Below are positions 6,098-26,838 of a stretch of 39,111 bases of DNA, piece after piece. The stretch lies in the IMG/VR virus record IMGVR_UViG_3300035097_000009, positions 1 through 39,111 of that record; one strand, written 5' to 3'. Made by a program: the position numbers and the translations under genes. Numbering within the stretch: the first letter of the stretch is position 1; the number at the start of each line of letters is the position of its first letter. The DNA comes from a virus. The notes under the pieces were generated by a model. It did not search any database. It was given only the letters and a program-made list of their open reading frames with translations, and was not told the origin of the DNA.

Positions 6098-7621
6098 TCA
6101 CGCGTATCCGAAGATCAGGTCGACGTCGAACTTCGATTGGTCGAATATCCACGCCGCCTGCACGAGCGAAGGAATGACCGTCCACCAATGGCGCACGAGG
6201 TCCGACGTGATCTCGAAACGCAGACCGACGATCATCAGCGTCGCGTTCGTCAGTCCGGTCAACGTCTCGGACGCCGTCACGATGTCGCCGATCTCGCGCG
6301 TCAGCGAGTGCGTGAGCAGCGAGGCCGAGTGCGACGGCACGATGAAGATCTCGCGCGCCTGATTCGACGGGTCGTTGAACGACGCGTTGATGAAGTCGGC
6401 GAGGTCCTGCGCGGTCGCCGTGCTCGATATGTATTTCAGGTCGAGCGACAGGAGGCGGTCGCCGTAGTCTTTCGCCGTGTAGGACTGCACCGTGATCGGC
6501 GCGTCGTCGTAGATCGCCTTGCCGCGTATCTGGCGCAGCGTCAAGTAGGCGACGACCGCCGCGCTGTTCGTGAACGTGAACATGACCGAGGAGCTGAATC
6601 CCACGGTCCCTGCCGCGCTGACGCTCGCCGTCATGTCGGAACCGGACCCATCCGACGCGGAGTTCGCCACGTAGTCGGTCGTCGCGACGAGAGGCGTCAC
6701 GACCGAGGCGGCGCCGAGCAGCTTCTCGGTGTTGTTCGGGTCGCGATAGTCTGCCCACAGGACGACCGACTGGCCCGGCTGGATCGCGACGGCCGACGTG
6801 TCGGCGAAAAGCACCGTGTTCGGCGCCGCTGCGAGACCTGCCGCCGTCGGGCGCTTTGGGTGCTGCGTGATCTGAATGCGGTTGAAGGTGTTCTCCAGCC
6901 CGTCGTCGACGACGATGCCCTGGAACGCGTCGTTGAACGTAGCGACGCTGGCACGCCCGGACAGCGTGTGGCGGTTGACGTAGGTCAGCGTCCCATCACC
7001 AGCAACGTAGAGTCTCCCACGAGCGTTCTGCATCACGCTGTCGAGCAGGAAGCGCGCGCTCGGCGTGTCGCCGCCCATGTCGTAGAACGCATAGTCGTAG
7101 ACGTCGAGCGCAGTGTCATAGGACGTCGCGACCGGGCGCGCGCTCGCGGGGACGGCCGCGATGATCGCCTGGGTCAGTTCGACTTCCGTCTTACCGATCT
7201 GCTGCATCATCGACTTCACGTTCGTGTCGGTGAGGTTTTCCATCACGTCCGTCGCGTAGCAGTAGGTCTGCTGCTCGCCGTTCTTGCCAGACGTCGGAGA
7301 AATCTTGCGAATCGTTCCGCGCCACATCGGCCACGTCGTCGCATCCGCCTTGACGGCGATCAGCTTGACGCCGATGCCGCGCTTGAACCCTGCGCGACAG
7401 GCCGCGTGGTACGGCGAGTAGTATCCCTGCGGCTTGCCGGGCCGCGCGTCGTTGCGCAGCCAGAACTCCAGCGTGCCGATCTCGGCCGTCAAGTCGGTCG
7501 GACTGCTCTGCCCGCTGCCGCGCTTGCCGCTGATCGCGCGGCTGCCGCTCGTGACGACGTCGGCCGTGACGTCGGTGAACGCTCCGGCGCTCAGTTCGAG
7601 CCAGACGCGGTAGACGGTCAC
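6098..7621 (-). CDS. Tail hub/distal tail protein
   Basis: This 507-aa protein starts at GTG 7621 with a GTGA overlap on the tape measure stop. It is beta-rich throughout, with LTAEIGTLEFWLRND and WPMWRGTIRKISPTSG near the N-terminus, an insert with DGSGSDMTASVSAAGTVGF, and a C-terminal REIGDIVTASETLTGLTNA domain. This pattern (insertion-rich domain, then a tail-tube-like or hub domain) fits baseplate hub proteins immediately downstream of the tape measure. It is the only gene between tape measure and fibre, so it may combine distal-tail and tail-tip roles. The assignment rests mainly on position. Confidence 0.75.
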   Translation of the reverse strand: MTVYRVWLELSAGAFTDVTADVVTSGSRAISGKRGSGQSSPTDLTAEIGTLEFWLRNDARPGKPQGYYSPYHAACRAGFKRGIGVKLIAVKADATTWPMWRGTIRKISPTSGKNGEQQTYCYATDVMENLTDTNVKSMMQQIGKTEVELTQAIIAAVPASARPVATSYDTALDVYDYAFYDMGGDTPSARFLLDSVMQNARGRLYVAGDGTLTYVNRHTLSGRASVATFNDAFQGIVVDDGLENTFNRIQITQHPKRPTAAGLAAAPNTVLFADTSAVAIQPGQSVVLWADYRDPNNTEKLLGAASVVTPLVATTDYVANSASDGSGSDMTASVSAAGTVGFSSSVMFTFTNSAAVVAYLTLRQIRGKAIYDDAPITVQSYTAKDYGDRLLSLDLKYISSTATAQDLADFINASFNDPSNQAREIFIVPSHSASLLTHSLTREIGDIVTASETLTGLTNATLMIVGLRFEITSDLVRHWWTVIPSLVQAAWIFDQSKFDVDLIFGYA

Positions 7622-10600
7622 GCCGCCCTCGCGTTCTTCATCGCGGCCGTCAAGAGGTTCGGCAGCCGCATGGTAAAGTCGTCGCGGAGCGCCCGGATCT
7701 CCTGACGCACGTCATCGTTCGTCTGCGACTGCCCGCTGTTGATCGCGTTCAGTCCCTCGGGACCAAGGCGGCTCATGCCGAAGACCGTCACGACGCCTTC
7801 GCCCGGCGTCAGCATCGCGGGCACCGTGTCGGTTCCCATCGGCTGCCACGGTCCCTGCACGAGCGTGCCAGCAGACGCGTAGACCACGCCGCCGGTCGCC
7901 ATACCGACCACGCCGCCGGTCGCCGCGCCTTCGATCTTCGGCGCATCGCCCCAGTCCTTCCACGGCGCGTCGACCTTCGGCGTCTTGATTTTATCCAACG
8001 CCGTGTTGACGCCCGCCGCCGCCGATTCGGCCGACGCAGGCAGCTTGACGCCGAAGACGACGGCCAGTCCCTCGACGGCCGTCGTGATGCGCAGCGTCGC
8101 GTCGAGCATCTGCTGCGTAGTGGACTTGTGCTTCTCGCCGACGAGTCCCGACGCCTCGGCTTCGTCGAGCAACGCCTGCGTCGAGTCGTCGAGCGTGTAG
8201 TGGAACTGCTTCTGCTCCTCCCACAGACGCTGCAGGGACGGCTGCATCGCGACCATCACGTCGCCGCCGTCCTTGCCTTGCTTGACGAGACTGTTGAAGG
8301 TCTGCGAAATCTGTCCGCCGAGTCCGGTGAACGTCTCCTGGTTCAACTTGCCCATGTTGCTCAGCGCCACCATGCCGAGCGACAGGGAGTTCACGGATGT
8401 GAGAGCAGGTCCGGCGATCGCGTCCTTCGCGAGCGCGATCTGACCTTTGATGAGGTCGAACGCAGCGCCACCTTCGAAGCCGGTCTGCTGCAAGATCGAA
8501 TCGAGGTTCGTGACGGCCGGAGCGATCGCCTTGATCGCATCGTTGAACGACGCGCCTCCCGCGATCATGCCGTCGAAGCTACCGACGATACCAGCTGCCA
8601 TCGCCGTGGCAGCGCCCTGACTCGCGACGCCGGTCGCATCGATGATGCCGCGCTGCGTCGCGATGTCTGCCGTGACGGTCGCGATCTGCGCCTGCAGCGA
8701 CTTCTGTTGGTCGCCGGTCGCCGTCGTGAGCTGCTCTGTTAGAGTCTTGAGCTGCGTCTGGTCAGTATCGAGCGTCTTGTAGGCCGATGACGTCACGCCG
8801 AGCGCGTCGGCGAACGCCGTCGCACCTGCGGCGCCCTGCTGCCCGAGGTATTCGGCGATGGCCTTCGACTGCGTGCCGAACTGGTCGTTCAATGCGATCA
8901 TCTCGACCATCTTCGCATCGAGCACGCCGACGTTGCTGGTCGCTGCCTTCGTGAACGTCTGCCAGTTCTCGTCGAGGATCTTCGCGGTCTGCGCGATGTC
9001 GAGCTGTCCACGACCGTTGAGGACGAACACGTCGCGCAGCCTGCCTTCGAGCTGCGAGAGGTTCTTGTCGGTCAGGCCGCCTGCCTGCTGGACGATCTTC
9101 GCCAGCGCGTCGTACTCGGCAGCCATGCGGTCGCCGTGGAATAGTTCTTTCGCGTTCTTCGCGATCTCCTTCGCCAGCTCGCCGGAAATCTTCACGCCGA
9201 AGTCGCGTCCAACCTCCTCCGACGCCTTCGCCCACTGCGGCTTACCGCGCACGATGCCGACGATGAGACCTGCCGCTGCGCCGATGGCCATGCCCCAGGG
9301 ACCGAACATCGCGCCAGCCTGCGCGCCTGCCATCGCACCGCTGAGCGCGTTGCCTGCCGCACTCGCATGCGACTCGGTCGCGGACCACACGTTCTGCGCG
9401 CCGTTGACGATGGCTGCCGCGCTCGCGACGCCTGCAGCCGCTTTGTCGGTAGCAGAAGCTTGCGAGGAGAACAACGCGCTGGCGATGCCAGCCGACCCGC
9501 CCCACTTCTCGTTCGCCTTCTGCGCGGCGCTCAGACCGACGACGATGTTCCCGGCACCCTTCATCATGTCGCCGAGCGATCCGCCTGCGATCTGACCGAG
9601 TTGCGCGAACGCGTTCGCGAGGTCCGCAAGCGCCTGCTCGGAGCGCTTCGCCCACTCCTGCGTGTACTGGTCCGTCTCGTCGATGTCCCGCTGAATTTTG
9701 TCCCACTCGATCGCGTCGATGGCCGAATTGGCTGCCCGCGTGTCGAGGTCGAACGACGCCTTCCAATCGCCGCCCTTGGTTTCAAGCGCGAGCTTCTGAT
9801 CAGCGAGGTGCTGCATCACCGCGCGCTTCTGGAAATCGTAAGACGACAGCGTGCGTCGTGCGATCTCGTCGTCGTATCCGCGTTGAGACGCAAGGCGGTC
9901 CGCATAGTTCGTCGCTTCGATCTTCATCAGCGCAACGCCGCGATCGTTCGCCAACTTGCGAAGCTCCTGACCGTGCTTCGCCTCGGCCTCGGCGAGCTTG
10001 TTCGCTGACTCTGCCGCCAGCTTCGACGTCGCGATTTCCTCCTTCAGCAAGGTGTCGATAGCCGCGACCTGCTCGGCGGTCGCTCGGTAGACCGTCGCGA
10101 GCGTCGACTGCGAGATGCCGCGCTTCAAGTCCCACTTGATGCCCTCGACCGTGTCAGACGATAGCTGGTCGTAGATGCTTCCGGCGACGGAGCTGTACTC
10201 CTTCCACGCGGCAGCGCTTTTCTTCGCCGCTTCGTCGGCCGCTTTCGACGTGTCAACCATGTTGCCTTGCACGCGAACGTGCGCCTTGCCGTGCTCGTCG
10301 ACGGTCTTGGAACTTTCGGTCGTCGCCTTCGAGGCAACGATCATCTTGTCGCGCACGTTGAGCAGCGTACCGCCGACCGCGTCGAGCGTCTTGTCGAAGG
10401 CCGAGTTGCCGACGATGCCCCTCGCAGCCTCCTGCACCTGCGCGTCCATACCCTTCGACAGCGCCCACATGTTGTCGGCCGCGTTCTTCGCTTCGATGGC
10501 CATGCGTCGCGTGCCGTCCGACGCGCCTGGAAGGTACGTGGCGCCCTTCGCGATGGCTGCATACGCAGAGGTCGCGGCAGCCGCCATGACGATCAGGCCA

Positions 10601-12889: not shown

Positions 12890-13284
12890 GACGGCCTCTT
12901 AAACGCCGAGATGTTGAACCCAGATCTCGGACGGCTCGACCCATCGAGCGGGAAGTCGAACACCTGCTGGTCGGCGATGATCTTCAGGTACCAACAGGTG
13001 CCGAGCGTCGTGTTGCGCACGCGCTTCAGCGAATCGCGAATCGCTTCGGCCTTCGCCTCGGCGACCGCTCGCGTGCTGGCCGTGACGATGATCTGCGCGC
13101 TCGGCCTCGCGTATCCATCGAGGTCGTTATGCGTCAGCTCGTCGCCGCTGCCGCCGGTCGTCGTCAACAGCGTGAACGGACCCGGACCTGCAGGAATGAC
13201 GACAGACGGACCGACGAAGAAGTTCGTCGACGTCACGAGTCCGTCGGCGATGAGCTTGTTCATGACTTCGACGGCGAAGCTCAT
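12886..13284 (-). CDS. Tail terminator/minor capsid-like connector protein
   Basis: This 132-aa protein starts MSFAVEVMNKLIADGLVTST and carries PAGPGPFTLLTTTGGSGDE, then ARPSAQIIVTASTRAVAEAK. These are the strand-helix elements of small phage proteins assigned as tail terminator or Minor_capsid_3-like. Its ATGA overlap with the HK97 gp10-like gene upstream and the tail tube gene downstream give the canonical order of neck protein, terminator, tube. The assignment is by pattern and order; no search was possible. Confidence 0.75.
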   Translation of the reverse strand: MSFAVEVMNKLIADGLVTSTNFFVGPSVVIPAGPGPFTLLTTTGGSGDELTHNDLDGYARPSAQIIVTASTRAVAEAKAEAIRDSLKRVRNTTLGTCWYLKIIADQQVFDFPLDGSSRPRSGFNISAFKRPS

Positions 13285-13658
13285 TTGTCCTTCAACTTGA
13301 TGCGTGCCGCGATGCGATCCCTCATGTGCGGCGCGCTCTCTTTGATCACCGATTCGAGATACTTCGCCTGCCCGTTCGGGTGGTGCGCTTCGAGATCCTC
13401 GTGCACGATCACCGCGTACTGCTCCGCAGCGCCGCCGTAGGCCATCGTCACCGAGATGTTCCTGCCGCTGCGCTGCGGCTCCATGACGAAGCCGCTCGCG
13501 CGAAGCGTGCCCGTGTCGACCGGCACGCGGCGCTTCGACTCAGTCATCTCGATCTGCGCCTCTTGATAGAGCGCCTTCGAGACGTCGTCGGGAAACTTCG
13601 CGGCGATGGCGCGCAGTTTCCCGGTCATCTCCGCAACGCCTGTCATCTTAAACGGCAC
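13281..13658 (-). CDS. HK97 gp10-like neck/tail-joining protein
   Basis: This 125-aa protein starts at GTG 13658. It shows the HK97-gp10 pattern: an N-terminal amphipathic helix region (MTGKLRAIAAKFPDDVSKAL), then RRVPVDTGTLRASGFV, which is the hallmark P-V-D-T-G-x-L-R-x-S motif, then a C-terminal EHHP-like LEAHHPNGQAKYLESVI and a closing basic helix. Such proteins sit at the head-tail junction. Here it is separated from the other connectors by the 6.5-kb glycosylation island; its start overlaps the end of the GT-B gene by 11 bases. Confidence 0.9.
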   Translation of the reverse strand: MPFKMTGVAEMTGKLRAIAAKFPDDVSKALYQEAQIEMTESKRRVPVDTGTLRASGFVMEPQRSGRNISVTMAYGGAAEQYAVIVHEDLEAHHPNGQAKYLESVIKESAPHMRDRIAARIKLKDK

Positions 13659-14910
13659 GCGTCGCCTCTCGATCGCTCATAATGAATCGTGGAAGGGCGT
13701 CCGCGTGCGTCGTCACGTCGAGCATGTCGACGCCGAGAACCGCAGCGACGATCTTCGCGAACTCGGTGCCGACGTGCTCCCACCGATGCTCCGGCTTTGA
13801 CGCGAGCTTGACGCCTGCGTCGGACAGCGCTTTCCACGAATGCTTCTCAAGATACAAGCGATTCAGCGCCTCCTTGACCTCAGGTCCGACTACGCCGCCG
13901 ACCGTGTTGATCTGCGGCGCGACGGCGATAGAGATGCACTCGGCGAGCCACGCTGCATCGACGGCCCATTCGGCGTAGGCCGACCACTTCGGCACGACGC
14001 ACGGCGTGCCGCAGGCCATCGCCTCCATCGCGGGAAGGCCCCACCCTTCACCGACCGTCGTCGAGAGATAGACGTCGATGAAGTTGTAGACCTTGGCCAT
14101 CGTGCCTTCGTCGACGCCATAGCGGGGGTTCACGTCCGGCAGGAGCACGCGGCCTTGCACGCCGAAGTACTTCGCGAGCATCTTGATGTCGAACGCCTGG
14201 TCACCGGTCGGCGCGCACTGCATCCAGAGCACCGCGTTCTTGACGTTCTTGTACTGCACCCACTCCGCGAAATACTGAATCGTCAAGTCCAATCGCTTGC
14301 GCGGCTGATTGCGCCCGATGCAGCCGACGATGAACGCGTCGTCGTCGAACCCGTAGGCGCGCAGCACCGGACCTATCGCATTGCTGCGAACCGCGACGCG
14401 GTCCATCGGATGATAGACGTCGAGATCGACGCCGAGCGGAACGACCGACGACGAACCCTTCCAGCCGCCAACGCGCGCTTCTTCAGCGCCGAACTGCGTC
14501 CAGAAGATCGCGTGCGACAGACCAGGATGCACGTCGGATGGCCCGAGCTTGTCGCCTTGGCAGTTCTTGCCGTCCACCGCGACGACGCCGACGACTGGGA
14601 TGTCCGGATAATCGGCCAACCGTTCGAGGTATTGCGGGAAGTTCCACGGATCCTGCTGAATGACGATGAGGTCCGGCTGCACTTGCTTAACGATGTTCGC
14701 GACGCGCCCGATGCCGAACGGGTCGCCGCCTGGCCAGCACGTATAGATCGGATAGAGCTTGTCGTATTCGTTCGGGTCGCCGGTGTGGTGCATGCCGAGA
14801 ACGTGCACGTCGCATCCTGCCGCCAGCAGACCCGCGCAATAGGCGTGCGTCGCCTTCGCGAACCCAGTGCTCACGACCGCGTCGCCGACGAACAGCACGC
14901 GCTTCTTCAC
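13648..14910 (-). CDS. GT-B glycosyltransferase (GT4-like)
   Basis: This 420-aa enzyme starts at GTG 14910 (GTGA overlap). N-terminal half: KKRVLFVGDAVVSTGFAKAT, a Rossmann-like acceptor domain. C-terminal half: VGCIGRNQPRKRLDLTIQYF (start of the donor-binding domain) and then GEGWGLPAMEAMACGTPCVV, the E-x7-E region that binds the nucleotide-sugar donor in GT4 retaining enzymes. The length is normal for the family. It is the last gene of the island and the only GT-B fold; the four others look GT-A. It probably adds a sugar to a growing glycan in the cytoplasm. Confidence 0.9.
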   Translation of the reverse strand: MKKRVLFVGDAVVSTGFAKATHAYCAGLLAAGCDVHVLGMHHTGDPNEYDKLYPIYTCWPGGDPFGIGRVANIVKQVQPDLIVIQQDPWNFPQYLERLADYPDIPVVGVVAVDGKNCQGDKLGPSDVHPGLSHAIFWTQFGAEEARVGGWKGSSSVVPLGVDLDVYHPMDRVAVRSNAIGPVLRAYGFDDDAFIVGCIGRNQPRKRLDLTIQYFAEWVQYKNVKNAVLWMQCAPTGDQAFDIKMLAKYFGVQGRVLLPDVNPRYGVDEGTMAKVYNFIDVYLSTTVGEGWGLPAMEAMACGTPCVVPKWSAYAEWAVDAAWLAECISIAVAPQINTVGGVVGPEVKEALNRLYLEKHSWKALSDAGVKLASKPEHRWEHVGTEFAKIVAAVLGVDMLDVTTHADALPRFIMSDREATRAV

Positions 14911-15461
14911 GCAACCTCCGGGCGAATCAAGGCGATGACTTCGGGTCGCCACGCAATCTCGTGCGGCTCCCACTTCATCCTAAACATGTAATCGCAGTCG
15001 CCGCCGACGTTCGGACCCCACAAGCCGATGCGCTCGGGCACGTTCGGCACGAAGACCATCGGCGTGCCGACGTTCCCGCACCGAATCTCGGGCTCCCGCC
15101 AGAGCGTCAAGCCGCCGATGTAGTGATACGACATGCGGAAGATCGACGGGCATCCGTTCATGACCGACTCGAACAGCTCACGCGTGCCCGGCACGTAGGC
15201 GTCGTCGTCGTCCATGAACGACAGATAGTCGCCCTTCGCGAAAGGCGTCACGTAGTTGCGCTCGGTGCTGCCCCAGTCGTTGCCGGGTGCGCAGCTCAAA
15301 AAATGCATCTCTGGCCGCTGGTCGAGGAGCGGACGAACGTGGAAGAGCAACGATGGGTCGCCGACGAGCAAGATCTCGTCGCCGGGACGCGTCTCGATGG
15401 ACGCGATCGTGCGCGGAAGCGTCGGTCGACCGATCGTCGGAACGATGTAGCTCACGTTCAC
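14907..15461 (-). CDS. GT-A glycosyltransferase (family 2-like), short
   Basis: This 184-aa protein starts at GTG 15461, with GTGA overlap. It begins NVSYIVPTIGRPTLPRTIAS, the nucleotide-binding start of GT2 enzymes, and carries GDYLSFMDDDDAYVPGTREL with the DxD-type metal and donor site. WRPEVIALIRPEVA ends the protein. At 184 residues it is close to the minimal GT-A core and lacks extra acceptor domains or membrane helices. It lies between another GT-A gene and the GT-B gene and probably acts in the same soluble pathway. Confidence 0.85.
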   Translation of the reverse strand: MNVSYIVPTIGRPTLPRTIASIETRPGDEILLVGDPSLLFHVRPLLDQRPEMHFLSCAPGNDWGSTERNYVTPFAKGDYLSFMDDDDAYVPGTRELFESVMNGCPSIFRMSYHYIGGLTLWREPEIRCGNVGTPMVFVPNVPERIGLWGPNVGGDCDYMFRMKWEPHEIAWRPEVIALIRPEVA

Positions 15462-16123
15462 CGCTGCCTCACCATCTCGATAGGGTGCCCGAGCGTCGCC
15501 TGCAGTCCGCCAGGCATGCGTCCCCACTTGGTGATGAAGTTCTCCTGCGCGATGAGGAACTTGCGATTGTGCTCGGCGTGCTCGGAGGGTGAATACATGC
15601 TCGGCGTCGCGCTGCCGACGTGCTTCACGCCGCAATCAATCGCCATTCGAACGGCACCGACGAGCGCGATGCGTTCGGCGTAGTCGCAATCCTCGAAATA
15701 CGCGTAGCCGGGCGATATGGTCTCGTCGAAGACGCCGACCTTCGCGACGCAACTGTCGCGCAGCAGGAAGCAGGAGCACATGTTGATGCCGACGTGCTCG
15801 ATGAGGTCTCCCTCGGTGTTCAAGAACGCTTCGAGCGAGTTCGGAGCGAACGTGATGTCGTCGTTCGTGATCAAGCGCGCGTCGCTCGTCTGCTCGATGA
15901 ACCAGTTCCACGACTCCGCGAGTCCCATCGGCTCATATGGCATTTCGACGAGCACTTCTACAGGCGCTGCCTGAATCGCCTTGGTCACTCGTTTAAGATC
16001 TCGTCCGTTGTCGATGATGAGCACGCGCTCCGGTTGCACCGTACTCGCTCGCAGCGACTCCAGCATGTCGCGAAGAAGATCGTACCGTTTGAGCACCGGA
16101 ACGCAGACGCTAACGCCCGACAT
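15458..16123 (-). CDS. GT-A glycosyltransferase (family 2-like)
   Basis: This 221-aa protein starts SGVSVCVPVLKRYDLLRDML after ATG 16123, and VLIIDNGRD follows as the second strand of the nucleotide fold. ARLITNDDITFAPNSLEAF supplies the acidic pair. A segment with CSCFLLRDSCVAKVGVFDET and YFEDCDYAERI matches the acceptor side seen in GT2 enzymes of the rhamnosyl- or galactofuranosyl-transferase type, where the E-D-x-D-Y stretch carries the catalytic base. The gene overlaps its upstream neighbour by 14 bases. Confidence 0.88.
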   Translation of the reverse strand: MSGVSVCVPVLKRYDLLRDMLESLRASTVQPERVLIIDNGRDLKRVTKAIQAAPVEVLVEMPYEPMGLAESWNWFIEQTSDARLITNDDITFAPNSLEAFLNTEGDLIEHVGINMCSCFLLRDSCVAKVGVFDETISPGYAYFEDCDYAERIALVGAVRMAIDCGVKHVGSATPSMYSPSEHAEHNRKFLIAQENFITKWGRMPGGLQATLGHPIEMVRQR

Positions 16124-16787
16124 GATGCAGCTCCTTCAGTTTCTCGACAGCCTCGGCGACGGCCTGCGCGTGCACCACCGTCCAATAGTCCGGCACGCGA
16201 CACACGATGTCTTTGTCGGACTCCTCGAACGTGCGATCCGGGTCGTTTCCAGCCCAGTCGTGATCGATGACGACGCCGGGAAGTTTTTCGAGTCGTCCGA
16301 GGCAACCCATCACGTCGCGCAGGTAGATGTCGCCCCAGAAGATGCGTGGGTCCCAGAGGAACCCGAGTTTGTCGACGACGTGCTTCGACACGGTCGAGAA
16401 CGGGTAATGATCCTCGTTGAACGTGCTGACGCCGAGGTTGAACAAGCCGTCGGGATACTGATTCGCCGCTTGCAGGATCAACGACGCCCATCCCACCGTC
16501 TTGAACACCATGTCATCGTTGCCGCAAAGCAACACGTCGCCCATCGAGGAGCGCGCCAGCTCGTTGAAGAACGTCGGCATGTCTCCGTAACCTTTGCCGC
16601 GCGGACCGACGATGACTCTATGTCTGCTGAACTGAAAAAACTCGCGCGTCGCCTCGTCGTCTTCGTCGATGCGAAAGACAAGCTCGGACAGCTCGCCGAA
16701 CGTCGTCGCATCGTACGAGTCCAGCAGCGTCCGCAAGCGCGCCACGCGCCCGCGCGTAGGCACGAGCACCGAGACCTTAGTGAACAT
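16110..16787 (-). CDS. GT-A fold glycosyltransferase-like protein
   Basis: This 225-aa protein starts FTKVSVLVPTRGRVARLRTL, the usual GT-A opening. MGDVLLCGNDDMVFKTVGW carries the likely donor and metal site (N-D-D). LFNLGVSTFNEDHYPFSTVS and WDPRIFWGDIYLRDVM lie in the acceptor half. It resembles phage and cyanobacterial GT-A proteins of unknown specificity. ATG 16787 lies 11 bases inside the preceding 59-aa gene, so translation is likely coupled. Confidence 0.82.
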   Translation of the reverse strand: MFTKVSVLVPTRGRVARLRTLLDSYDATTFGELSELVFRIDEDDEATREFFQFSRHRVIVGPRGKGYGDMPTFFNELARSSMGDVLLCGNDDMVFKTVGWASLILQAANQYPDGLFNLGVSTFNEDHYPFSTVSKHVVDKLGFLWDPRIFWGDIYLRDVMGCLGRLEKLPGVVIDHDWAGNDPDRTFEESDKDIVCRVPDYWTVVHAQAVAEAVEKLKELHHVGR

Positions 16788-16956
16788 GGTTCAGATGAAA
16801 GCGGTTCATGTATTCGAGCACGATCGGAATCTGCTCCTCCGTCAGGTTGCCTTCATCGTCCGTGATAGTCCCGACGTTCCCGCAATACTCCTCGTAGCAG
16901 ATCGAGCAGCTGCGCAGGAGTTCCGACAGTTGATAGCGCGGATCAATGACCGGCAT
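16777..16956 (-). CDS. 59-aa Cys-containing protein between radical SAM and GT genes
   Basis: ATG 16956 lies 14 bases inside the radical SAM gene, and the TAA at 16777-16779 lies inside the next GT gene, so the three are interlocked. The product starts MPVIDPRYQLSELLRSCSIC and continues YEEYCGNVGTI, giving Cys at 17, 20 and 25 (C-x2-C-x4-C), then an acidic DDEGNLTEEQIP stretch and a C-terminal NRFHLNHVH. The Cys cluster could bind metal or an iron-sulphur cluster, or the protein may partner the radical SAM enzyme. I do not recognise a family. Confidence 0.65.
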   Translation of the reverse strand: MPVIDPRYQLSELLRSCSICYEEYCGNVGTITDDEGNLTEEQIPIVLEYMNRFHLNHVH

Positions 16957-18541
16957 ACGTCAATCCGCTCGCGGCCGTCAGCACGCCGTGCTCGACCGCC
17001 TCTTGCTGCTGTTGCTTGATGCGCACGTCTTCGTCCCACTCGGCCTTGGCCCATCCGTGATAGACGAGGAAATCGAACATCTCGCGCTTGATCTTGAACA
17101 TCTCCTCGACAGTCGCGCCGTGCGGACGCACGAGGATCTCGTCGCGCGCGGAGAAGCCGACGATCCACTGGTTGTCATAGTTGTAATCGACGATGTCGAT
17201 GCCGCTCTCCTGCGGGTGCGTCCACCATCGGCTGCCCGGATAGGGAATGCCGACGGCTAAGTTGCACGAATCGAGATACGGCTTGACCGACAGCAGCCAG
17301 TCTTGCGTCTGCTTCATCGTCTCCATCGTCTCGCCAGCCATGCCGATGACCATGAACGCGATGGTGAAGAACCCGTGCTCGCGCGCCTTCTTCAGCGCCG
17401 CCGTGTTCTGCGCGACGGTCGTGCCCTTCTGGTTCGCGTCGAGCACGCTCTGCGCGCCGCTCTCGATGCCGAAGCACGTGACCTTCGTGTTCATCAGCTT
17501 GAGTGACTCGGCGACGTGGTCGTCCATCGTGTTGACGCGCGTGTGGATGCGCGCCGCGAACGAGTCAGGACCGAGCGCCGAGCGGACGGCCGTCGCCAGC
17601 TCGCGAAGCTTCGTCTTGTGCAGCGTGTAGGTGTCGTCCTGGAACTTGAACATCCGCACGCCTTTGTCCATCACCTGCGACATCTCGGCGATGATGTTGT
17701 GCGGCGAGCGATAGCGCGGCTTCTGCCCGATCCACGGCGTCGAGCAGTAGGTGCACTTGTATGGGCACCCGCGCGTTCCGATGAGCGACATCACGGCGCT
17801 CGACGCCTCCGGGTGCGCCGCATTCGGGAAGTACTTGTGCTTCATCACGGCCACGCCGTCGTTGTAGATGTGGTCGTGCGGCAGCAGGTCCCACGCCGGG
17901 AACGGAATCGCGTCGAGGTCCATCGCGTCGGACTTGTCGCCGTAGTAATACGGCTGCAGTTTGCCTGCGTCCCAGTCGGTCAACATCTGCAGCGTCGCGA
18001 CCTCGCCTTCCATGACGATAACCGTGTCGAAGAGCGCGCGGCCGTCGGCTGCGCGATAGTCGCGACGCGCGTTCAACGCGCCTTTGTAGTGGTAGTTCTC
18101 CTGCCTGCCCGCTTCTTTGACTTCGCGCGGTTCGTACGAAGGGTGAGGACCACCAGCCACGAGCAGCGCTTCAGGTGCACGATCTCGGATGTATGCGGCC
18201 AGCTCAAGAGCCTCTCCAAACTGAGGAGTACAGAATCCGAACATGTGGACATCGGAATCCATAACGGCGTCCGGAAGATGGATGTTGCCTTCGTATCTTT
18301 TGTCGAGCATCGACGTGACGACGATTTCATGCCCATGCTCCCTCAGCAGTCCAGCGATATAGAGCACGCCGAGCGGCACGTTCGTCTTCGAGTCGGCCAG
18401 CCACGGCGATGACGGCAGGATGCAATGAATCTTCTTGCGCGGTATGCGCTTGATCGGCAGTCCGGACGACGGCATCGTGCCGCAGAGCGACGCGTCGCTC
18501 ATCTGATAGCCGGACGACGCCATCGTAAGTATCTTGCTCAT
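16943..18541 (-). CDS. Radical SAM protein with B12-binding-type N-terminal domain
   Basis: This is a 532-aa enzyme from ATG 18541 (AAGG 8 bases upstream; a GTG at 18565 would add 8 residues). Residues about 33-200 form the alpha/beta domain common to cobalamin-type radical SAM enzymes (VPLGVLYIAGLLREHGHEIV, LLVAGGPHPSYEP). The canonical D-x-H-x2-G cobalamin ligand motif is not seen, so B12 binding is doubtful. RGCPYKCTYC at about 259-266 is the C-x3-C-x2-C site for the 4Fe-4S cluster. CFGIESGAQSVLDANQKGTT and IGMAGETMETMKQT complete the barrel. It probably performs a methylation, rearrangement or other radical step on the island's glycan or acceptor. An unusual 186-bp gap precedes it. Confidence 0.92.
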   Translation of the reverse strand: MSKILTMASSGYQMSDASLCGTMPSSGLPIKRIPRKKIHCILPSSPWLADSKTNVPLGVLYIAGLLREHGHEIVVTSMLDKRYEGNIHLPDAVMDSDVHMFGFCTPQFGEALELAAYIRDRAPEALLVAGGPHPSYEPREVKEAGRQENYHYKGALNARRDYRAADGRALFDTVIVMEGEVATLQMLTDWDAGKLQPYYYGDKSDAMDLDAIPFPAWDLLPHDHIYNDGVAVMKHKYFPNAAHPEASSAVMSLIGTRGCPYKCTYCSTPWIGQKPRYRSPHNIIAEMSQVMDKGVRMFKFQDDTYTLHKTKLRELATAVRSALGPDSFAARIHTRVNTMDDHVAESLKLMNTKVTCFGIESGAQSVLDANQKGTTVAQNTAALKKAREHGFFTIAFMVIGMAGETMETMKQTQDWLLSVKPYLDSCNLAVGIPYPGSRWWTHPQESGIDIVDYNYDNQWIVGFSARDEILVRPHGATVEEMFKIKREMFDFLVYHGWAKAEWDEDVRIKQQQQEAVEHGVLTAASGLTYAGH

Positions 18542-18727
18542 GGTATCAACCTTTTCCGTTGTCACGGCGCGTTGCCGAGTGGATGCTGGTCATGGTTTAC
18601 GAATCTAAAGAACCGAAGTAGATGTGCCCTTGACTGCAAACGATCCGCTTCTTATCTAATACCGTAAATCTTCGTCTCTTATGACCGCACGAGCGACAGC
18701 GCAATATGCGAAACCGTCTTACACTTT
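18542..18727 (-). promoter_or_regulatory. 186-bp gene-free gap, possible internal promoter region
   Basis: This is the largest non-coding gap inside the minus-strand block, between the methyltransferase and radical SAM genes, and is visibly more AT-rich than its neighbours. A weak sigma70-like pair can be read on the minus strand (TTGCGC, 17 bases, TAAGAG). It is not convincing on its own. No hairpin with a T-run is evident. Confidence 0.25.
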
Positions 18728-19423
18728 TCATGGCTTCCGCATGCAGAGGTTCACGAACGAATACGTGTGCACGAAGTCGCCCGCGTACGCGAAATCAGTC
18801 GGCCCGACAAACTCCAGTCCGAACCGCACTGGCAGCGTCTCGACGAACGCCTGCATATATGGCGTGACCTGCAGATGTCGCGACGGCGACGCCTCCCACT
18901 GTTCGATGTCGCGGAAGTAATCCGAGGTGATCATGACGTAACCGCCGGGCTTCGTGATGCGCACTAGCTCGCGCATCGCCGCGTCGTGATCATCGACGTG
19001 CTCGATCGTCGAGATGCACATCGTTACGTCGAATACCGGATAAGGCCACGAAGACATATCCTCGAGTGGTAGATCGAAGAGTGGCATGACCACGTCGTAG
19101 GCCATGCGCTGGGCTTCGACCATCGGCGTGATGTCGCCATACTTCATCGAGTCCGTGCAGCAGAGGCGCGGATAGAGCATCGCCAGGTACGGGTCGAAGA
19201 ACGACGCGCCCGAGCCGACGTCGATCATCTCGGCATCGCGAGGCACGCCGAGTTCATCGAGCTGCTGCAGGATCGACGCATACTCCCAGAAGCGGTGTGG
19301 GTGCCAGTCGCGGTGCGGCACGCAGTTCTTGACCATGTCGCTCTGGAAGATGCGCAGCGGTATCGTGTACGGCTTCAAGAAGTCGTAGTCGTCCGGGTGC
19401 AGCGAGCGATTGTAAGGTCTCAT
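18728..19423 (-). CDS. SAM-dependent class I methyltransferase
   Basis: This 231-aa protein starts MRPYNRSLHPDDYDFLKPYT at ATG 19423 (ATGA overlap). MIDVGSGASFFDPYLAML is motif I of the Rossmann-like SAM-binding fold. FDVTMCISTIEHVDDHDAAM is the motif II-III region typical of Methyltransf_11/23. ELVRITKPGGYVMITSDYF is the post-III motif. It probably methylates a sugar or small molecule in the island's pathway; such enzymes often cap glycans. It is followed by the 186-bp gap. Confidence 0.9.
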   Translation of the reverse strand: MRPYNRSLHPDDYDFLKPYTIPLRIFQSDMVKNCVPHRDWHPHRFWEYASILQQLDELGVPRDAEMIDVGSGASFFDPYLAMLYPRLCCTDSMKYGDITPMVEAQRMAYDVVMPLFDLPLEDMSSWPYPVFDVTMCISTIEHVDDHDAAMRELVRITKPGGYVMITSDYFRDIEQWEASPSRHLQVTPYMQAFVETLPVRFGLEFVGPTDFAYAGDFVHTYSFVNLCMRKP

Positions 19424-20178
19424 CGGTATGGCGACATCTTCTCGTGTCGCTTCCACAGTTCGTGGATGTCGATGCCGAGGTCCCGCAGTTGCTGGTTCGC
19501 TAAGTTCATGTCGCGCGGCGCTGCGTGCAGCGGATGAAAGAACAGCACCTCGTCGAGACGCACGAACTCGGTGCCTGCCTTCCACAACCGATGTTGAAAC
19601 TCGGTCTGCGCGTGACCCCACGCCGATAGCTTCTCGTTCAACCCTCCGATGCGCACGAACGCATCTCGCTGGGCCATCCACACGCCTGAATCGATGTTCG
19701 TGTAGTCAGCCTGCACGCCTTCGAGCCGACCAAGCACCCTCGAATCTTGCCGCCACACGAACGATTCAACGGTCGCGATGTCGACGTGAAGGTGCCGCAT
19801 GCTGCTCGTCACGAAAACGTTCCAGTCGGACGTCGATTCGACCGTGTCGACGAACCGCTTGACGAGCGAAAAGTCCAACAGGTAGTCAGCACGCGTGAAC
19901 AGCACCCACTGCGTCTGCACCGCCAGAACGGCGACGTTCGTCGACCACGCGTGCGCCTTCGACGGATCGCCATGCTTGAATGAGAGCAAGCGCACTGGCA
20001 CCGGGAACGTTTCGGGATGCACGACCGCGCGAATCATCTCCAACGAGTCTGGCGTGTCGTTGTCTACGATGATGACCTCGCTCACGCGCGAGAGGTCCTG
20101 TCGTCGCACGGAATAAAGCGCTGCGGCGAGGTTCGCCAGCGTCAGGCTCTTGAAATACGTCAAACAGATCGTGATCAT
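19420..20178 (-). CDS. GT-A glycosyltransferase (family 2)
   Basis: This 252-aa protein starts MITICLTYFKSLTLANLAAA after ATG 20178, overlapping the connector gene's stop. VSEVIIVDNDTPDSL is the nucleotide-binding strand of GT2 enzymes; WVLFTRADYLLDFSLVKR is the region of the metal site. MAQRDAFVRIGGLNEKLSAW followed by GHAQTEFQHRL is the classic acceptor-side motif (G-G-x-x-E, then the ED-like base). It opens the glycosylation island and is translationally coupled to a structural gene, which shows that the island is expressed with the virion genes. Confidence 0.9.
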   Translation of the reverse strand: MITICLTYFKSLTLANLAAALYSVRRQDLSRVSEVIIVDNDTPDSLEMIRAVVHPETFPVPVRLLSFKHGDPSKAHAWSTNVAVLAVQTQWVLFTRADYLLDFSLVKRFVDTVESTSDWNVFVTSSMRHLHVDIATVESFVWRQDSRVLGRLEGVQADYTNIDSGVWMAQRDAFVRIGGLNEKLSAWGHAQTEFQHRLWKAGTEFVRLDEVLFFHPLHAAPRDMNLANQQLRDLGIDIHELWKRHEKMSPYR

Positions 20179-20570
20179 CCACCCCACACCTGTGAATAGA
20201 ACGGCACGCCAGTGCCGCCGTCGAAGAACCCATCGACCGCAAGCACGGTCACAAGCGTTCCGTCCGAGAGCGTGAACGTGTCGTCGACGTCGACCGGATT
20301 CGTGCGCAAGTAGCCAGGGTTCGGCGTCGTCGGCGCGATTTCCTCGAGGAGTCCGATGTAGGTGTTCGACACGTCCTGCTGCCCGGTCTGCAAGTTCCGC
20401 ACGATCTTCTGCTTGCGCTCGACGATCGCCAAGCGCTGCACGTCGAGGTACTGCGGCGAGCCGTCGAACGACTGCCCGATCCACGCGTGGTGCGTCACGG
20501 TCACGTGCAAGTCCAGCGTCTCGGTGCGCGCGATGCCGATCGCCTCGCGGATGTCGTCGGCCAGGCTCAT
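20175..20570 (-). CDS. Head-tail joining protein (putative)
   Basis: This 131-aa protein starts SLADDIREAIGIARTETLDL after ATG 20570 (ATGA overlap). It is beta-rich: LHVTVTHHAWIG, RLAIVERKQKIVRNL, FTLSDGTLVTVLAVDGFF. Length, fold pattern and place right after the DnaT-like connector suit a head-closure or joining protein. No family-specific motif settles it. It is the last structural gene before the glycosylation island. Confidence 0.65.
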   Translation of the reverse strand: MSLADDIREAIGIARTETLDLHVTVTHHAWIGQSFDGSPQYLDVQRLAIVERKQKIVRNLQTGQQDVSNTYIGLLEEIAPTTPNPGYLRTNPVDVDDTFTLSDGTLVTVLAVDGFFDGGTGVPFYSQVWGG

Positions 20571-21166: not shown

Positions 21167-21556
21167 CTAGTGCTCCGTCGCCTGCAAGAACGTCAACGAG
21201 CCGTACGAAAAGATGCCCTTGTTCCCGACGTCGAGGCGCTTGAGCGAGTGCCGATAGGCGACATTCGCCTTCAATCCGGTCGCCGTATCCGCAGCCGCGA
21301 ACGTCAGGCGCACGCGCTGCGTGTTCACCGCTGGCACTGCGTTGTAGACGCCGACGATCGAAAGTCCGGTCCCGACGCCCTTGACCAGCAGTGCAGGGTC
21401 GGCCGCTTGGTCCGTCTTCCTCATGTTCCATTCGAGCGGAAGTCCGGTCACGTCGAACGGTGTCGCGTCGTCCTGCCCGAAGATCGTCAGGTCGATGACC
21501 TTGTCTTCACCCAGGAAGAACTTGTCGGTCGCTGTGATGTTGAACTCTCTCGCCAC
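21167..21556 (-). CDS. Small beta-rich virion protein, unknown
   Basis: This 129-aa protein starts at GTG 21556, overlapping the preceding TAG by one base. AREFNITATDKFFLGEDKVI, then DLTIFGQDDATPFDVTGLPL resembles the beta-sandwich N-terminal domain of upper baseplate or fibre-collar proteins; the D-x-T-x-x-D-V-T-G pattern recurs in such proteins. HSLKRLDVGNKGIFSYGSLT ends the domain. Its neighbours are the repeat fibre and the DnaT-like connector, so a neck or fibre-attachment role is inferred. Confidence 0.7.
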   Translation of the reverse strand: MAREFNITATDKFFLGEDKVIDLTIFGQDDATPFDVTGLPLEWNMRKTDQAADPALLVKGVGTGLSIVGVYNAVPAVNTQRVRLTFAAADTATGLKANVAYRHSLKRLDVGNKGIFSYGSLTFLQATEH

Positions 21557-23415
21557 TAAACGACCTCGATGCTCTTCGTCGAACCAGTGCCGATGATGGT
21601 CGTCGTCGAACTGCCGCCGCCAGCCAACGACACCGCAGCGGCTGCTTGATAGTGCGCCAAGACCTCTGCCGCACTCAACGCTCGCGCGTAGATCGCCAAG
21701 TTATCAAGCACTCCGACGACGTCGAGTCCAACGCCACGCGTCGAACCCCACTGACACAAGTTGATGGGGTCCCATGTCGTCGCTCGCGCCTCGTCGCTCA
21801 CGAGCACGCCGTTAACGTAGATCGAACGACCGATCGCCGAGCGCACGCCGACGACATGATAGATGCGCCCAGGCTCGATGATGCCGCCGTCGATCTCGGT
21901 CAGCACGTTGACGTCTTCGCCTGCCTCCACCGTCCATTCGTTCGTCATCCAGGCGACGAACGCGCGTCCGTCCGGAACTGGACTCGTCGGCATCAGCAGG
22001 AGCTGCGCGCCCGTGGACCAGAACAGCGTCTTGACGTCAACGAACGGCAAGTCGATAGGCTGAACCCACGCTTCGATCGATAGTTCGTTGACGAGCGGAG
22101 GATTTCCGAAGTTCGAAAGCTTGGCGCTGCCGGAAATCGTGGCGAACGCGCCAGCAGTCGCCCCGTCGTGCACGAGACCAGGTTTCTCAAGAATAATGTC
22201 GCCAGCATATAGACCGTGGTGATCATTGCCGCTGCTGTCCAATGCCTGCTTGCTTCCGACGACCGGACCCGTTTCGTCGATCTGCCAGTACCCCCACGGA
22301 GCGCTTGCCAGCACGACCTGCGCGTACATGAGATCGTTCGCGACCGCAGACGGTGCGCTGCCGACCGCCTGAATGATCGGCGTGAAGCTCCCTGCGCCGA
22401 CGATGATCGAGATCCTCGGTCCGCGCGAAGACGCGTCGAGCGCCGTCGCGCCTGAGAGACTGCCGACCGCGCTGGCGGTCGCGAGACCGATTGCCGCAAG
22501 GCTCGTAGCGCCGACGACGCTTCCGTCGCCGATGATAGTGCTGCGTCCGGTCGCCGCAAGCGCGCTCGCACCCGCAAGCGCGCCGATGGCCGTGAACTTC
22601 GAGGCGCCGACGCCAGCCAGCGCGCTCGCGCCGCTGAGCGACCCGTTGTTCACGGCGCCATTCACGCCTATGAGAGACGATGCGCCCGACAGGCTGCCGA
22701 CCGCGCTGACGGTCGACTTGCCTACGCCAGCCAGCGCGCTCGCGCCACTGAGCGCGCCGACGCCTGCAGACGCGGCTGCGCCGGTCGCCGCGAGCGACGA
22801 CGCGCCCGACAGGCTGCCGACGGCAAGCACTGTGCTCGCGCCGACACCTGAGAGCGACGAAGACCCGGCAAGCGCACCGGACGGCGTGGCAGCGTTGACG
22901 CCTGCAAGCGAAGATGCGCCGCTCAGCGAGCCGACGCCGACCGAGGCAGCCGCACCGGTCGCCGCGAGCGACGACGCGCCCGAGAGACTACCATCCGATG
23001 ACGCGGTAGACCTGCCGACGCCAGCAAGAGACGAGGCGCCCGAGAGGCTGCCCGCTCCAACCGCTGAGGAAGCGCCTACGCCAGCGAGCGCCGAGGCGCC
23101 CGATAGACTGCCTGCACTGCTAGCGGTCGCCGCGCCCGTCGCGCTGAGCGACGATGCACCGGACAGGCTGCCGGTGGCCGCAGCCGTCGCGACGAGCGCA
23201 GAGGCGCCGGACAGGTTCCCGACCGCAGTCGCCGTCGACTTCCCGACGGCCGCCAGCGCGCTCGTGCCGCTGAGCGAGCCGACGGCGATGATGAGCGCCG
23301 AACCAACTGCAGCGAGCGACGATGCACCCGTCGACGATCCTGCCGAAGACGCAGCGGCTGCGCTCTCTCGTCGATATTTCGCGTTCTGGTATTTCTCGAA
23401 GAGATTGTAAGACAT
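21556..23415 (-). CDS. Ser-rich repeat fibre with LamG-like C-terminal domain
   Basis: This 619-aa protein starts at ATG 23415 (TGATG overlap). Residues 1-25 (MSYNLFEKYQNAKYRRESAA) form a head-attachment segment. Residues 26-327 contain 15 full and one partial copy of a 20-residue unit of the form GSLSGASSLAGVGASTASAV, roughly 25-35% Ser/Thr. Residues about 345-600 form a concanavalin/LamG-like jelly-roll (YWQIDETGPVVGSKQALDSS, ELSIEAWVQPIDLP, YVNGVLVSD, VVGVLDNLAIYARALSAAEV), a carbohydrate-binding fold common in phage fibres. It lies in the head region, not among tail genes, so it may be a capsid or neck whisker fibre. The Ser-rich repeats are possible glycosylation targets. Confidence 0.88.
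   Translation of the reverse strand: MSYNLFEKYQNAKYRRESAAAASSAGSSTGASSLAAVGSALIIAVGSLSGTSALAAVGKSTATAVGNLSGASALVATAAATGSLSGASSLSATGAATASSAGSLSGASALAGVGASSAVGAGSLSGASSLAGVGRSTASSDGSLSGASSLAATGAAASVGVGSLSGASSLAGVNAATPSGALAGSSSLSGVGASTVLAVGSLSGASSLAATGAAASAGVGALSGASALAGVGKSTVSAVGSLSGASSLIGVNGAVNNGSLSGASALAGVGASKFTAIGALAGASALAATGRSTIIGDGSVVGATSLAAIGLATASAVGSLSGATALDASSRGPRISIIVGAGSFTPIIQAVGSAPSAVANDLMYAQVVLASAPWGYWQIDETGPVVGSKQALDSSGNDHHGLYAGDIILEKPGLVHDGATAGAFATISGSAKLSNFGNPPLVNELSIEAWVQPIDLPFVDVKTLFWSTGAQLLLMPTSPVPDGRAFVAWMTNEWTVEAGEDVNVLTEIDGGIIEPGRIYHVVGVRSAIGRSIYVNGVLVSDEARATTWDPINLCQWGSTRGVGLDVVGVLDNLAIYARALSAAEVLAHYQAAAAVSLAGGGSSTTTIIGTGSTKSIEVV
22435..23340 (-). repeat. Tandem 60-bp coding repeats, 16 units
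   Basis: These are coding repeats inside the fibre gene. Most units are exactly 60 bp; units 3, 8 and 12 are shorter (16, 18 and 18 codons). The invariant core is GSLSGASSL or GSLSGASAL. The divergence between units is moderate, showing an old expansion; repeat-number variation between related phages is likely. Confidence 0.9.
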
Positions 23416-24122
23416 CAGGCGAACTCTTCTACGATGATGACGCCGTTCGCTCCGGCTCCACCGGCGACAGACGCACCGCCGCTGAGCGCGCATCCTCCCG
23501 AACCGCCGCCGCCGTAGACGCCGCCAGCCGCGCCTGCACCCTGCGCCTTCTTTCCACCCGTCGAACCGCTGCCGTGATAACCGTTCCCTCCAGCGCCGCT
23601 GACCGCTTGCGCCGCTGCGAGTGCGAGTCCTTCTTCACCGTCCGAGCCAGCGAGCTTCAGATCCCCGACGCCAGATGCACTCACGCCACCTGCGCCGCCC
23701 AACCCACCGACGTGAATGGTCGCGATGGTGTCAGCAAGTCCACCGGAACCACCCTTCGCGGTGCAGATCGCGGGAGAATCGAACGTCGTATCGCCGCCAG
23801 CGTTCCCATTGTTCGCGCCCGCTGCCGCTGCAGTTCCTCCAGCACCAACCGCCACGGTGAAGGCCGTCAGCTTCGGCGTGACCTTCCACGTCTGACTGAC
23901 CGCACCGCCGCCTCCGCCGCCTGCGGCACCAGAGTTCGTCGCGGCCGTGGCTACGCCGCCGCCAGCTCCTCCTGCGCCGACGCACGTGACTCGAATCGCA
24001 CGACACCACGCAGGCACCGTATACGTGGTAGTGCCCTGCTGGATGTAACTGATCGATAGCAACTTGAATCCAGGAGGAGCCGATCCCAGAGGCAGGCCAT
24101 TCGCGTCGTAGGTATTCTGCAT
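23415..24122 (-). CDS. Glycine-rich fibre/adhesin domain protein
   Basis: This 235-aa protein starts MQNTYDANGLPLGSAPPGFK at ATG 24122. After a short head (TYTVPAWCRAIRVTCVGAGG), the rest is glycine-rich with runs such as GGVATAATNSGAAGGGGGGA and GAGGNGYHGSG. It closes with GGAGANGVIIVEEFA. The V-P-x-x-x-x-x-V-x-V-x-G-x-G-G-G start and V-I-I-V-x-E end define the Gly-rich domain of phage fibres, which forms polyglycine-helix or beta-prism-like tips that bind host receptors. It lies between the propeller-like gene and the repeat fibre. Confidence 0.82.
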   Translation of the reverse strand: MQNTYDANGLPLGSAPPGFKLLSISYIQQGTTTYTVPAWCRAIRVTCVGAGGAGGGVATAATNSGAAGGGGGGAVSQTWKVTPKLTAFTVAVGAGGTAAAAGANNGNAGGDTTFDSPAICTAKGGSGGLADTIATIHVGGLGGAGGVSASGVGDLKLAGSDGEEGLALAAAQAVSGAGGNGYHGSGSTGGKKAQGAGAAGGVYGGGGSGGCALSGGASVAGGAGANGVIIVEEFA

Positions 24123-26409: not shown

Positions 26410-26838
26410 TTAGGTCTCCGTCAGCGTCGTGGCCGTCGACAGACTCGGCGTCACGCCGTTGCCCATCGTGATGTTCGGCGTCACCGTTCCCGAGACGAGG
26501 CGCACGCCAGCGCCAGACGTCAGCGTGCCGTACGAGCAATGCGTCGCGGTGCCCGAGCCGCCGGTGCCTGCAGGAAACGTGATCGCCGCGACCGGGACGA
26601 CGGTGTTGTTCGTGACCGTCCAGCCGCTCGACGTCCGCACGACGGCCACGCGCGCATAGCTCGTGTAGGCCGCCTCGCTCGTCGTCTGGTCGCCTGCCGT
26701 GCCTGGGTCCGCCGTGTGCAGGGCGACGTAGATGTTCGTGATGGGAGACGAAGTCGCGTTGACCGCGACGTTCGCGAACAGCGTCGCGTTGAAAATCAGC
26801 AGCAGCAGCGAGTTCGCGTAAGCCGTGCTCTTCGCCAT
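26410..26838 (-). CDS. Phage fibre/head-fibre-like protein
   Basis: This 142-aa protein starts MAKSTAYANSLLLLIFNATL at ATG 26838 behind a good AAAGGAG site. NIYVALHTADPGTAGDQTTS, TSYARVAVVRTSSGWTVTNN, and AGVRLVSGTVTPNITMGNG are the hallmarks of a recurrent phage protein often annotated as a tail-fibre protein: the A-L-H-T-A-D-P-G motif with the E-A-x-Y-x-x-Y-A-R-V pair. Its role in the virion is not proven. It sits immediately after a short helical gene in the head region. Confidence 0.8.
   Translation of the reverse strand: MAKSTAYANSLLLLIFNATLFANVAVNATSSPITNIYVALHTADPGTAGDQTTSEAAYTSYARVAVVRTSSGWTVTNNTVVPVAAITFPAGTGGSGTATHCSYGTLTSGAGVRLVSGTVTPNITMGNGVTPSLSTATTLTET

Follow-up and report, generated by a model that had tools for sequence, protein, structure and literature searches.

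Virion glycosylation in mycobacteriophages, in Che8 and its relatives, has reportedly been described by Freeman et al. in 2023. In the literature on these phages, phage-encoded glycosyltransferases go together with capsid and tail-tube glycans (PMC12619734, PMC11256854, PMC10568470). Here we analyze an island of eight overlapping minus-strand genes that spans positions 13648-20178 of a 39,111-base virus record (IMG/VR record IMGVR_UViG_3300035097_000009, the whole of which is hereafter referred to as the window) and sits between a gene in head-completion position (20175-20570) and a gp10-like gene (13281-13658). The island encodes five glycosyltransferases (GTA1 to GTA4 and a GT4-type enzyme), a class I methyltransferase (MT), a radical S-adenosylmethionine (SAM) protein with a B12-binding domain and a 59-residue mini-protein.

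Several characterized systems resemble parts of this island. Methylation of an aminoglycoside sugar carbon by cobalamin and radical SAM chemistry is known for GenD1 and, likewise, GenK (PMC4340712). Among solved structures, AprD4, which also has a sugar substrate, comes nearest to the radical SAM protein of the window in both fold and sequence, and a protein found in variant islands matches the sugar C-methyltransferases TylC3 and TcaB9 over its full length. Among phages, Synechococcus phage S-CBS4 carries a mini-island composed of a GT4-type homologue, a galactosyltransferase and a methyltransferase, located between its portal and head maturation protease genes.

Recurrence of the island in differently built phages

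A search of IMG/VR with the radical SAM protein returned 29 loci, onto which the window proteins were then mapped. One 67.5-kb record (G001) represents a near-identical phage and adds polymerase and helicase genes beyond the window; outside the window, 10 selected G001 proteins were scanned against Pfam, and further genes, including a lysis gene, were named by eye. In relatives with related capsid or connector proteins (the first set), the gene order runs from the head-completion-position gene through GTA1, MT, the radical SAM gene, GTA2, GTA3/GTA4 and GT4 to gp10, with the order of GTA3 and GTA4 flipped in some phages and additional open reading frames (ORFs) in some (e.g. L017, L024). The radical SAM frame of L020 is split into two ORFs, perhaps by a sequence error. 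Around complete islands with both flanks detected, flank spacing is 5.9-7.6 kb, and in the island-free relatives L041 and L042 the flanks are 25 and 13 bases apart. A smaller or different gene set lies between the flanks in L114, L048, L049, L050 and L053, and a GT4-type homologue precedes gp10, without the other seven genes, in L048-L055. At this same junction, the GT4 gene of L048 is preceded (5836-7888) by a GT2 match below threshold and by another radical SAM-like protein, a small one that scores 25.3 bits against a cut-off of 29.5.

A second, mixed set of siphoviruses (L006, L008, L009, L013, L016, L021, L023, L025, L026, L091 and others) has different head genes; its terminase, protease-capsid fusion, portal and connector genes were named by eye. 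The core of their island, GTA1-(MT)-radical SAM-GTA2-GTA4, lies beside connector-like genes, and in L013 between terminase-like and capsid-like genes. Mapping of the window proteins did not detect GTA3 in this second set, many members of which carry an extra GT-A enzyme and several a GT-B enzyme near the tail genes. The two sets intermingle in quick trees: in that of GTA1, the starred branches are compatible only with two or more changes of set, and that of GTA2 needs five such changes, none beyond one being forced. The island is a recurring module in differently built siphoviruses, and we regard it with high confidence as a mobile cassette for glycan synthesis within the structural operon. 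Chance or a gene-calling artefact is ruled out by the conserved gene order, which recurs across many records. The first-pass annotation had placed a glycan-building set in the structural operon, and the mapping of relatives bears this out: the set stands at the same place in related phages, and no radical SAM island lies outside head and tail genes within the flanks examined (up to 10 kb).

Two unrelated enzymes in one slot

With GTA2 as bait, a second kind of island came to light. Between MT and GTA2 it encodes a protein of roughly 410 residues, for which no similarity to the radical SAM protein was detected. Families PF08421, PF13489 and PF08484 all scored above cut-off in the three slot proteins scanned. 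Compared against the PDB, one slot protein matched D-mycarose 3-C-methyltransferase (4rv9) at 7e-41 over residues 5-394, with TcaB9 also matched full length, and a profile of five slot proteins matched D-mycarose 3-C-methyltransferase at 2.9e-49. Of the catalytic Tyr/Glu/His motif of the TylC3 and TcaB9 sugar 3-C-methyltransferases, Glu and His are aligned and kept in these slot C-methyltransferases, and the tyrosine position is occupied by cysteine.

Thirty distinct GTA1-GTA2 intervals contain the radical SAM gene in 25 cases and the C-methyltransferase gene in five, with none holding both and none neither; these intervals are distinct exact sequences, a few of them nearly alike, from 59 records, many of which are overlapping pulls of the same contigs. 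All 49 radical SAM records that extend far enough have GTA1 upstream, four more being too short to tell, and the GTA2 records without GTA1 (L100, L114, L116) carry no slot enzyme. A C-methyltransferase search yielded 16 loci, 10 in the same island type (L161 being cut off before GTA2) and six in other phages. Phages with capsids at 66% to that of the window include both kinds, with the C-methyltransferase in L032/L110 and L034/L161 and the radical SAM gene in G004 (L022), and the GTA2 tree, by its starred branches, requires the slot enzyme to have changed twice. Relatives of the window phage thus fill one slot with two unrelated enzymes, possibly performing the same chemistry. C-methyltransferase homologues are likewise present in L118, L119, L129, L138, L141, L142 and L145, which have only distant relatives of GTA2, and enzymes of this kind may be common across the glycan islands of phages.

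Domains and conservation of the radical SAM enzyme

The radical SAM gene (16943-18541, minus strand) encodes a protein with a radical SAM domain (PF04055, 1.6e-19, 71 bits), in which the three CxxxCxxC cysteines are invariant in 24 sequences, and an N-terminal B12-binding domain (PF02310, 2.5e-10, 40.7 bits versus a cut-off of 32.1), both above cut-off. Near-full-length fold comparison with VIA-align ranked AprD4 first (Z 24.2, 22% identity), followed by MgmA (21.9), CysS (20.7), TsrM (18.9), OxsB (18.1) and TokK (14.7). AprD4 was also the top match by sequence (2.1e-18) and by Foldseek, and TokK weakly matched the N-terminal domain. In the radical SAM protein of L091 (6981-9839), the CxxxCxxC motif is broken at the last of its cysteines by an intein-like insert, to which intein/Hint models match, one of them (PT-HINT) just above cut-off.

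Conservation was assessed on 25 hand-picked loci, retaining one row per gene with 75% coverage and no stop, which left 24 radical SAM rows. Within the first set, median amino-acid identity of the radical SAM protein was 0.81 (range 0.59-0.96). MT reached 0.65, the capsid 0.55 and the five transferases 0.49-0.55, and six proteins of the connector and tail lay at 0.39-0.49. Between sets, the median was 0.80 for the radical SAM protein versus 0.51-0.58 for GTA1, MT, GTA2 and GTA4. At four-fold synonymous sites, copies of the radical SAM gene had an identity of 0.37 within the first set and 0.42 from one set to the other, with a chance level of 0.32; within the second set, which contains near-copies, it reached 0.49, and neighboring genes gave 0.28-0.49. 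The radical SAM protein is under strong purifying selection, with silent sites near saturation. Since four-fold sites are near chance, the protein appears to be held by selection and not by recent sharing, and recent spread is not favored as the source of its high identity.

Patterns of GTA2 served as an independent bait, with 80 of 81 loci kept; we used 46 of these, with identities from about 45% upwards, and left out the 34 at 37% or less. The radical SAM enzyme was present in 30 of the 46 loci, the C-methyltransferase in 10 (counting L113, where it has 7% coverage at a contig end) and neither in six, two of which are on contigs that start less than 140 bases from GTA2. Radical SAM identity to the window protein had a median of 82%, a minimum of 59% and a next-lowest value of 78% (n=29, window phage excluded; some rows are near-copies or partial sequences). 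The GTA2 bait having returned the same result, search bias was rejected as the source of the conservation. The C-methyltransferase in the same slot is not unusually conserved (median 0.64 in four islands versus 0.52-0.66 for nine neighbors), and the constraint therefore belongs to the radical SAM enzyme.

Organization of the island

The four GT-A and one GT-B glycosyltransferases, the class I methyltransferase and the B12-type radical SAM protein listed in the first-pass annotation are all present on the minus strand, as judged by Pfam, PHROG and structural models. Its description of the junctions, all overlapping except for a 186-bp gap, matches exactly, the overlaps being 4, 4, 14, 11, 14, 4, 4 and 11 bases with both flanks included. 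The island opens with GTA1 (19420-20178), a GT2/GT7C-like glycosyltransferase with PF02709 (1.1e-8) and PF00535 (4.5e-6) above cut-off, the frame of which overlaps that of the left flank (20175-20570) by 4 bases. This flank is named from position alone and had no match in Pfam or PHROG searches, so that its earlier designation as a head-joining gene holds for its position and receives no family support. The gp10-like identity of the right flank (13281-13658), an HK97 gp10-like or neck protein, is backed by both PF04883 (3.4e-5) and phrog_5 (2.1e-8).

MT (18728-19423) is a class I SAM methyltransferase with PF08241 above cut-off (4.6e-10); it is an optional gene, present in 49 of 59 island records. 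The sole gap inside the island (18542-18727, 186 bases), lying between MT and the radical SAM gene, had no Rfam match, including none to a cobalamin riboswitch, and its one weak promoter-like match, near the gap end, is no more than expected by chance. Directly after the radical SAM gene lies the optional 59-residue ORF (16777-16956), which has no family match. With the window phage counted, 10 of the 29 loci that carry the radical SAM gene have a similar short ORF at this place (L001, L005, L010, L011, L012, L017, L018, L024, L065, L091), the L017 and L018 copies being identical. By eye, these ORFs show a CxxC...HxxH pattern, which reads HxxxH in L017/L018. The recurrence of this ORF upholds its earlier prediction, and its product, first labeled Cys-rich, is more aptly described as a putative metal-binding protein of small size.

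The remaining genes, all on the same strand, encode GTA2 (16110-16787; phrog_14945, 3e-16), a GT-A-fold glycosyltransferase and core gene; GTA3 (15458-16123), a GT2 family glycosyltransferase with PF00535 above cut-off (1.9e-6) and a match to phrog_29879 (1.1e-27); GTA4 (14907-15461), a GT2 family core gene with PF00535 above cut-off (3.2e-6); and the GT4-type GT-B glycosyltransferase (13648-14910), with PF00534 above cut-off (7.2e-10) and a match to phrog_2170 (6e-29). Pfam cut-offs were thus exceeded by four of the five transferases. GTA2, without a Pfam match, is backed by PHROG and by a confident model (predicted local distance difference test score, pLDDT, of 90), for which all 50 matches listed were solved glycosyltransferases (template modeling scores 0.52-0.68); these PDB structures are presumably GT-A folds.

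Candidate targets and relatives among isolates

The overlap of island frames with connector genes and the head/tail location in both phage sets are indirect indications of a virion target. Hydropathy revealed no membrane segment in the eight proteins (highest 19-residue value 1.33, usual threshold 1.6), and PF00303, a thymidylate-synthase-like hydroxymethylase family, was found in none of 12 records, some of which are perhaps fragments (control positive in 9 of 14). Together, these two results favor a soluble, non-DNA target. PF12851 (Tet/JBP) was also negative in the 12 records, with the control silent as well.

Several other proteins encoded near the island were inspected. A long Ala/Ser/Gly-rich repeat protein with a Laminin_G_3 domain lies between the capsid and connector genes of the window (21556-23493), different repetitive proteins are found upstream of the island in L022, L020 and L110, and collagen-like Gly-rich proteins precede the cassette in the second-set loci L009 (6205-7128) and L023 (5657-6979). 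Repetitive Ser/Thr-rich or collagen-like proteins were rejected as the acceptor, being present upstream in some island phages and not flagged in others. Just downstream of the capsid gene, the window also contains a PF23140 match (podophage GP4 fibre protein gp80) at 26410-26838. In G001, a 1094-residue DNA polymerase A protein (L066, 16028-19312) has an N-terminal PF01555 match at 26.5 bits (cut-off 26.7), and its homologue in G004 is 59% identical. Beside this polymerase, a pyridoxal phosphate (PLP)-fold protein (PALP, below cut-off) is encoded at G001 19533-20216 (L067 1-216 into L066); it is 68% identical in G004, and its residues 1-72 match DNA modification methylase/DNA methyltransferase annotations in Erythrobacter and Microcystis phages.

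Streptomyces phage SF3 (two records) is the only isolate with a match to the radical SAM protein, at 26% over 44%, and its matching gene adjoins thymidylate kinase and NUDIX genes. GTA2 matches three isolate records at 24-27% and the GT4-type enzyme seven at 25-32%, and GTA1 has no match among isolates. The nearest isolates by capsid are Brevundimonas phages (34%), one of which, MaInes, has no glycosyltransferase annotated in the stretch examined. At an E-value of 1e-60, the radical SAM profile hit a single genome out of 369 in the class of the sole metagenome-assembled genome hit. The contig concerned carries homologues of phage portal, polymerase, exonuclease and helicase genes; a bacterial origin is therefore rejected, and the hit shows no host.

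Discussion

The cassette very probably builds an unusual methylated sugar chain, and five transferases, a methyltransferase and a B12 radical SAM protein fit the "complex modified glycan" put forward in the first-pass annotation. The radical SAM protein is likely to act on the cassette glycan or its precursor, and we favor, with moderate confidence, C-methylation as its reaction. The enzyme would take a methyl group from methylcobalamin and attach it to a carbon of a sugar made by the host, either a free nucleotide sugar or an already transferred one, generating a C-methyl-branched sugar. This is the simplest account of the slot, since the solved relatives of its alternative occupant are named sugar 3-C-methyltransferases. 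Because the radical SAM gene is never seen without GTA1, GTA1 may handle the C-methyl-branched sugar, and the chances that it is the enzyme transferring it appear about even. In most of the phages, the class I methyltransferase would add a further methyl, perhaps through O-methylation, and GTA2 and GTA4 (plus GTA3 and the GT4-type enzyme in the window lineage) would complete the chain on a cytoplasmic acceptor. The virion is a reasonably probable acceptor, most likely through its major capsid or tail-tube protein; virion glycans are reported on capsid and tail-tube subunits of mycobacteriophages (PMC12619734, PMC11256854). Taken as a whole, the interpretation of the island as a cassette adding a C-methyl-branched sugar, by way of a B12 radical SAM C-methylase, to a cytoplasmic acceptor that is probably the virion falls slightly short of an even chance. 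More tentative still is the proposal of a swappable C-methylase slot, occupied mostly by a B12 radical SAM enzyme and elsewhere by a TylC3-like enzyme, that makes C-methyl-branched sugars for the phage's own particles.

Several observations weigh against this interpretation. The slot C-methyltransferases have a cysteine at the position aligned to the motif tyrosine of TylC3/TcaB9, and a shared slot does not prove a shared reaction. C-methyltransferase homologues occur in 12 records without GTA1, in some beside replication-like genes (L157, L160, by eye), indicating that the C-methyltransferase is not tied to the cassette, and for the GTA1 tree (without L090) a single switch between the two slot enzymes suffices. 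In the fold comparison, the model of the radical SAM protein (pLDDT of only 70) lies closest to AprD4, a sugar diol dehydratase that ranks above the methylases MgmA and CysS, and no NCBIfam cut-off was reached among the 25 families listed of 27 (BchE, PhpK, HpnJ, HpnR and others). A PF16363-type nucleotide-sugar dehydratase was found in none of 12 records (control positive in 14 of 14), which implies that the sugar substrate must come from the host. Hydropathy values for the C-methyltransferase (1.61) and for two second-set proteins (1.94 and 1.76) are at or above the membrane threshold, and no acceptor emerged, long proteins rich in Ser/Thr or Gly being encoded ahead of the island in some phages and not flagged in others.

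The AprD4 match suggests a different role for the slot, in which the radical SAM enzyme would be a dehydratase making a deoxysugar and the C-methyltransferase variant would make another rare sugar. AprD4 leads by sequence, Foldseek and VIA-align alike and acts on a sugar (PMC5461906); it works, however, with the reductase AprD3, and no oxidoreductase family is present among the eight island proteins, the rest of the genome not having been searched for an AprD3-like reductase. With an N-terminal domain above the PF02310 cut-off that weakly matches TokK, and with a slot swap that points to methylation, we consider such a "rare sugar" slot unlikely. There is also a slim chance that the radical SAM enzyme has a virion protein as its substrate, one residue of which it methylates, and is no more than a companion of the glycosyltransferases, as could be argued from MgmA, a protein glutamine methylase, being the second-best fold and from an enzyme far more conserved than the neighboring glycosyltransferases. 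Yet the capsid and connector proteins of the two sets are mostly unmatched while the enzyme stays alike, its slot partner belongs to a sugar-methyltransferase family, and its gene is paired with GTA1.

Targets other than the virion are improbable. Serotype-conversion systems of the gtr kind rely on a membrane-bound flippase and transferases, and the lack of a membrane segment in the eight proteins leaves no flippase or membrane transferase of this kind in the island. Phage glycosyltransferases do change serotypes in lysogeny (PMC12619734), but the structural-operon position suggests late expression, and we see little likelihood that the cassette alters the host surface for superinfection exclusion or serotype conversion. 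Glycosylation of phage DNA appears only marginally more plausible. Viral glycosyltransferases that hypermodify DNA are reported (reference title in PMC12619734), C-methyltransferase homologues neighbor replication-like genes in L157 and L160, and G001 encodes the PLP-fold-like protein and the polymerase with a sub-threshold methylase-like match. Against a DNA target stand the absence of PF00303 from the 12 records and the location of the cassette, which keeps to head and tail genes within the flanks examined and is far from the polymerase in G001; the Tet_JBP search was negative, its control being silent too.

The literature searched, from which most subscription papers were left out, contained nothing combining phages with a 3-C-methyltransferase, and no comparable cassette in its titles and abstract openings. 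Within that literature, the "undescribed pathway" envisaged in the first-pass annotation is plausible. The slot swap, the conservation of the radical SAM enzyme, the second phage set and the optional nature of the 59-residue gene and MT go beyond that annotation. Phage glycan islands are already known; as far as our searches reach, what is new is a C-methylase slot with exchangeable occupants, one of them a radical SAM/B12 enzyme. Phage virion glycans are known from few cases in the literature searched, and this radical SAM enzyme is tied to none of them. If the C-methylase slot proposed here is real, it would represent a natural pair of unrelated enzymes for one sugar C-methylation in one phage operon, and a route to branched sugars, carried by phages, within which polar methyl transfer and the radical chemistry of B12 have taken each other's place. 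It would also make the B12 radical SAM reaction directly testable against a family of known chemistry, explain a constant radical SAM enzyme amid drifting capsids and glycosyltransferases, and render virion decoration dependent on host cobalamin (vitamin B12).

Each of the closest described systems departs from the island in a specific manner. GenD1 and GenK act in actinobacterial antibiotic synthesis and are likened to the window enzyme by description, not by sequence. AprD4 shares 22% identity with that enzyme and has a reductase partner that the window island lacks, and TylC3/TcaB9 differ from the slot protein in retaining the motif tyrosine. The S-CBS4 mini-island has no radical SAM or C-methyltransferase gene annotated in the stretch examined. 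Compared to the glycosyltransferases of the mycobacteriophages, the set in the window, known from genes alone, is larger, is woven into the connector operon and is accompanied by a radical SAM/B12 enzyme or a sugar C-methyltransferase.

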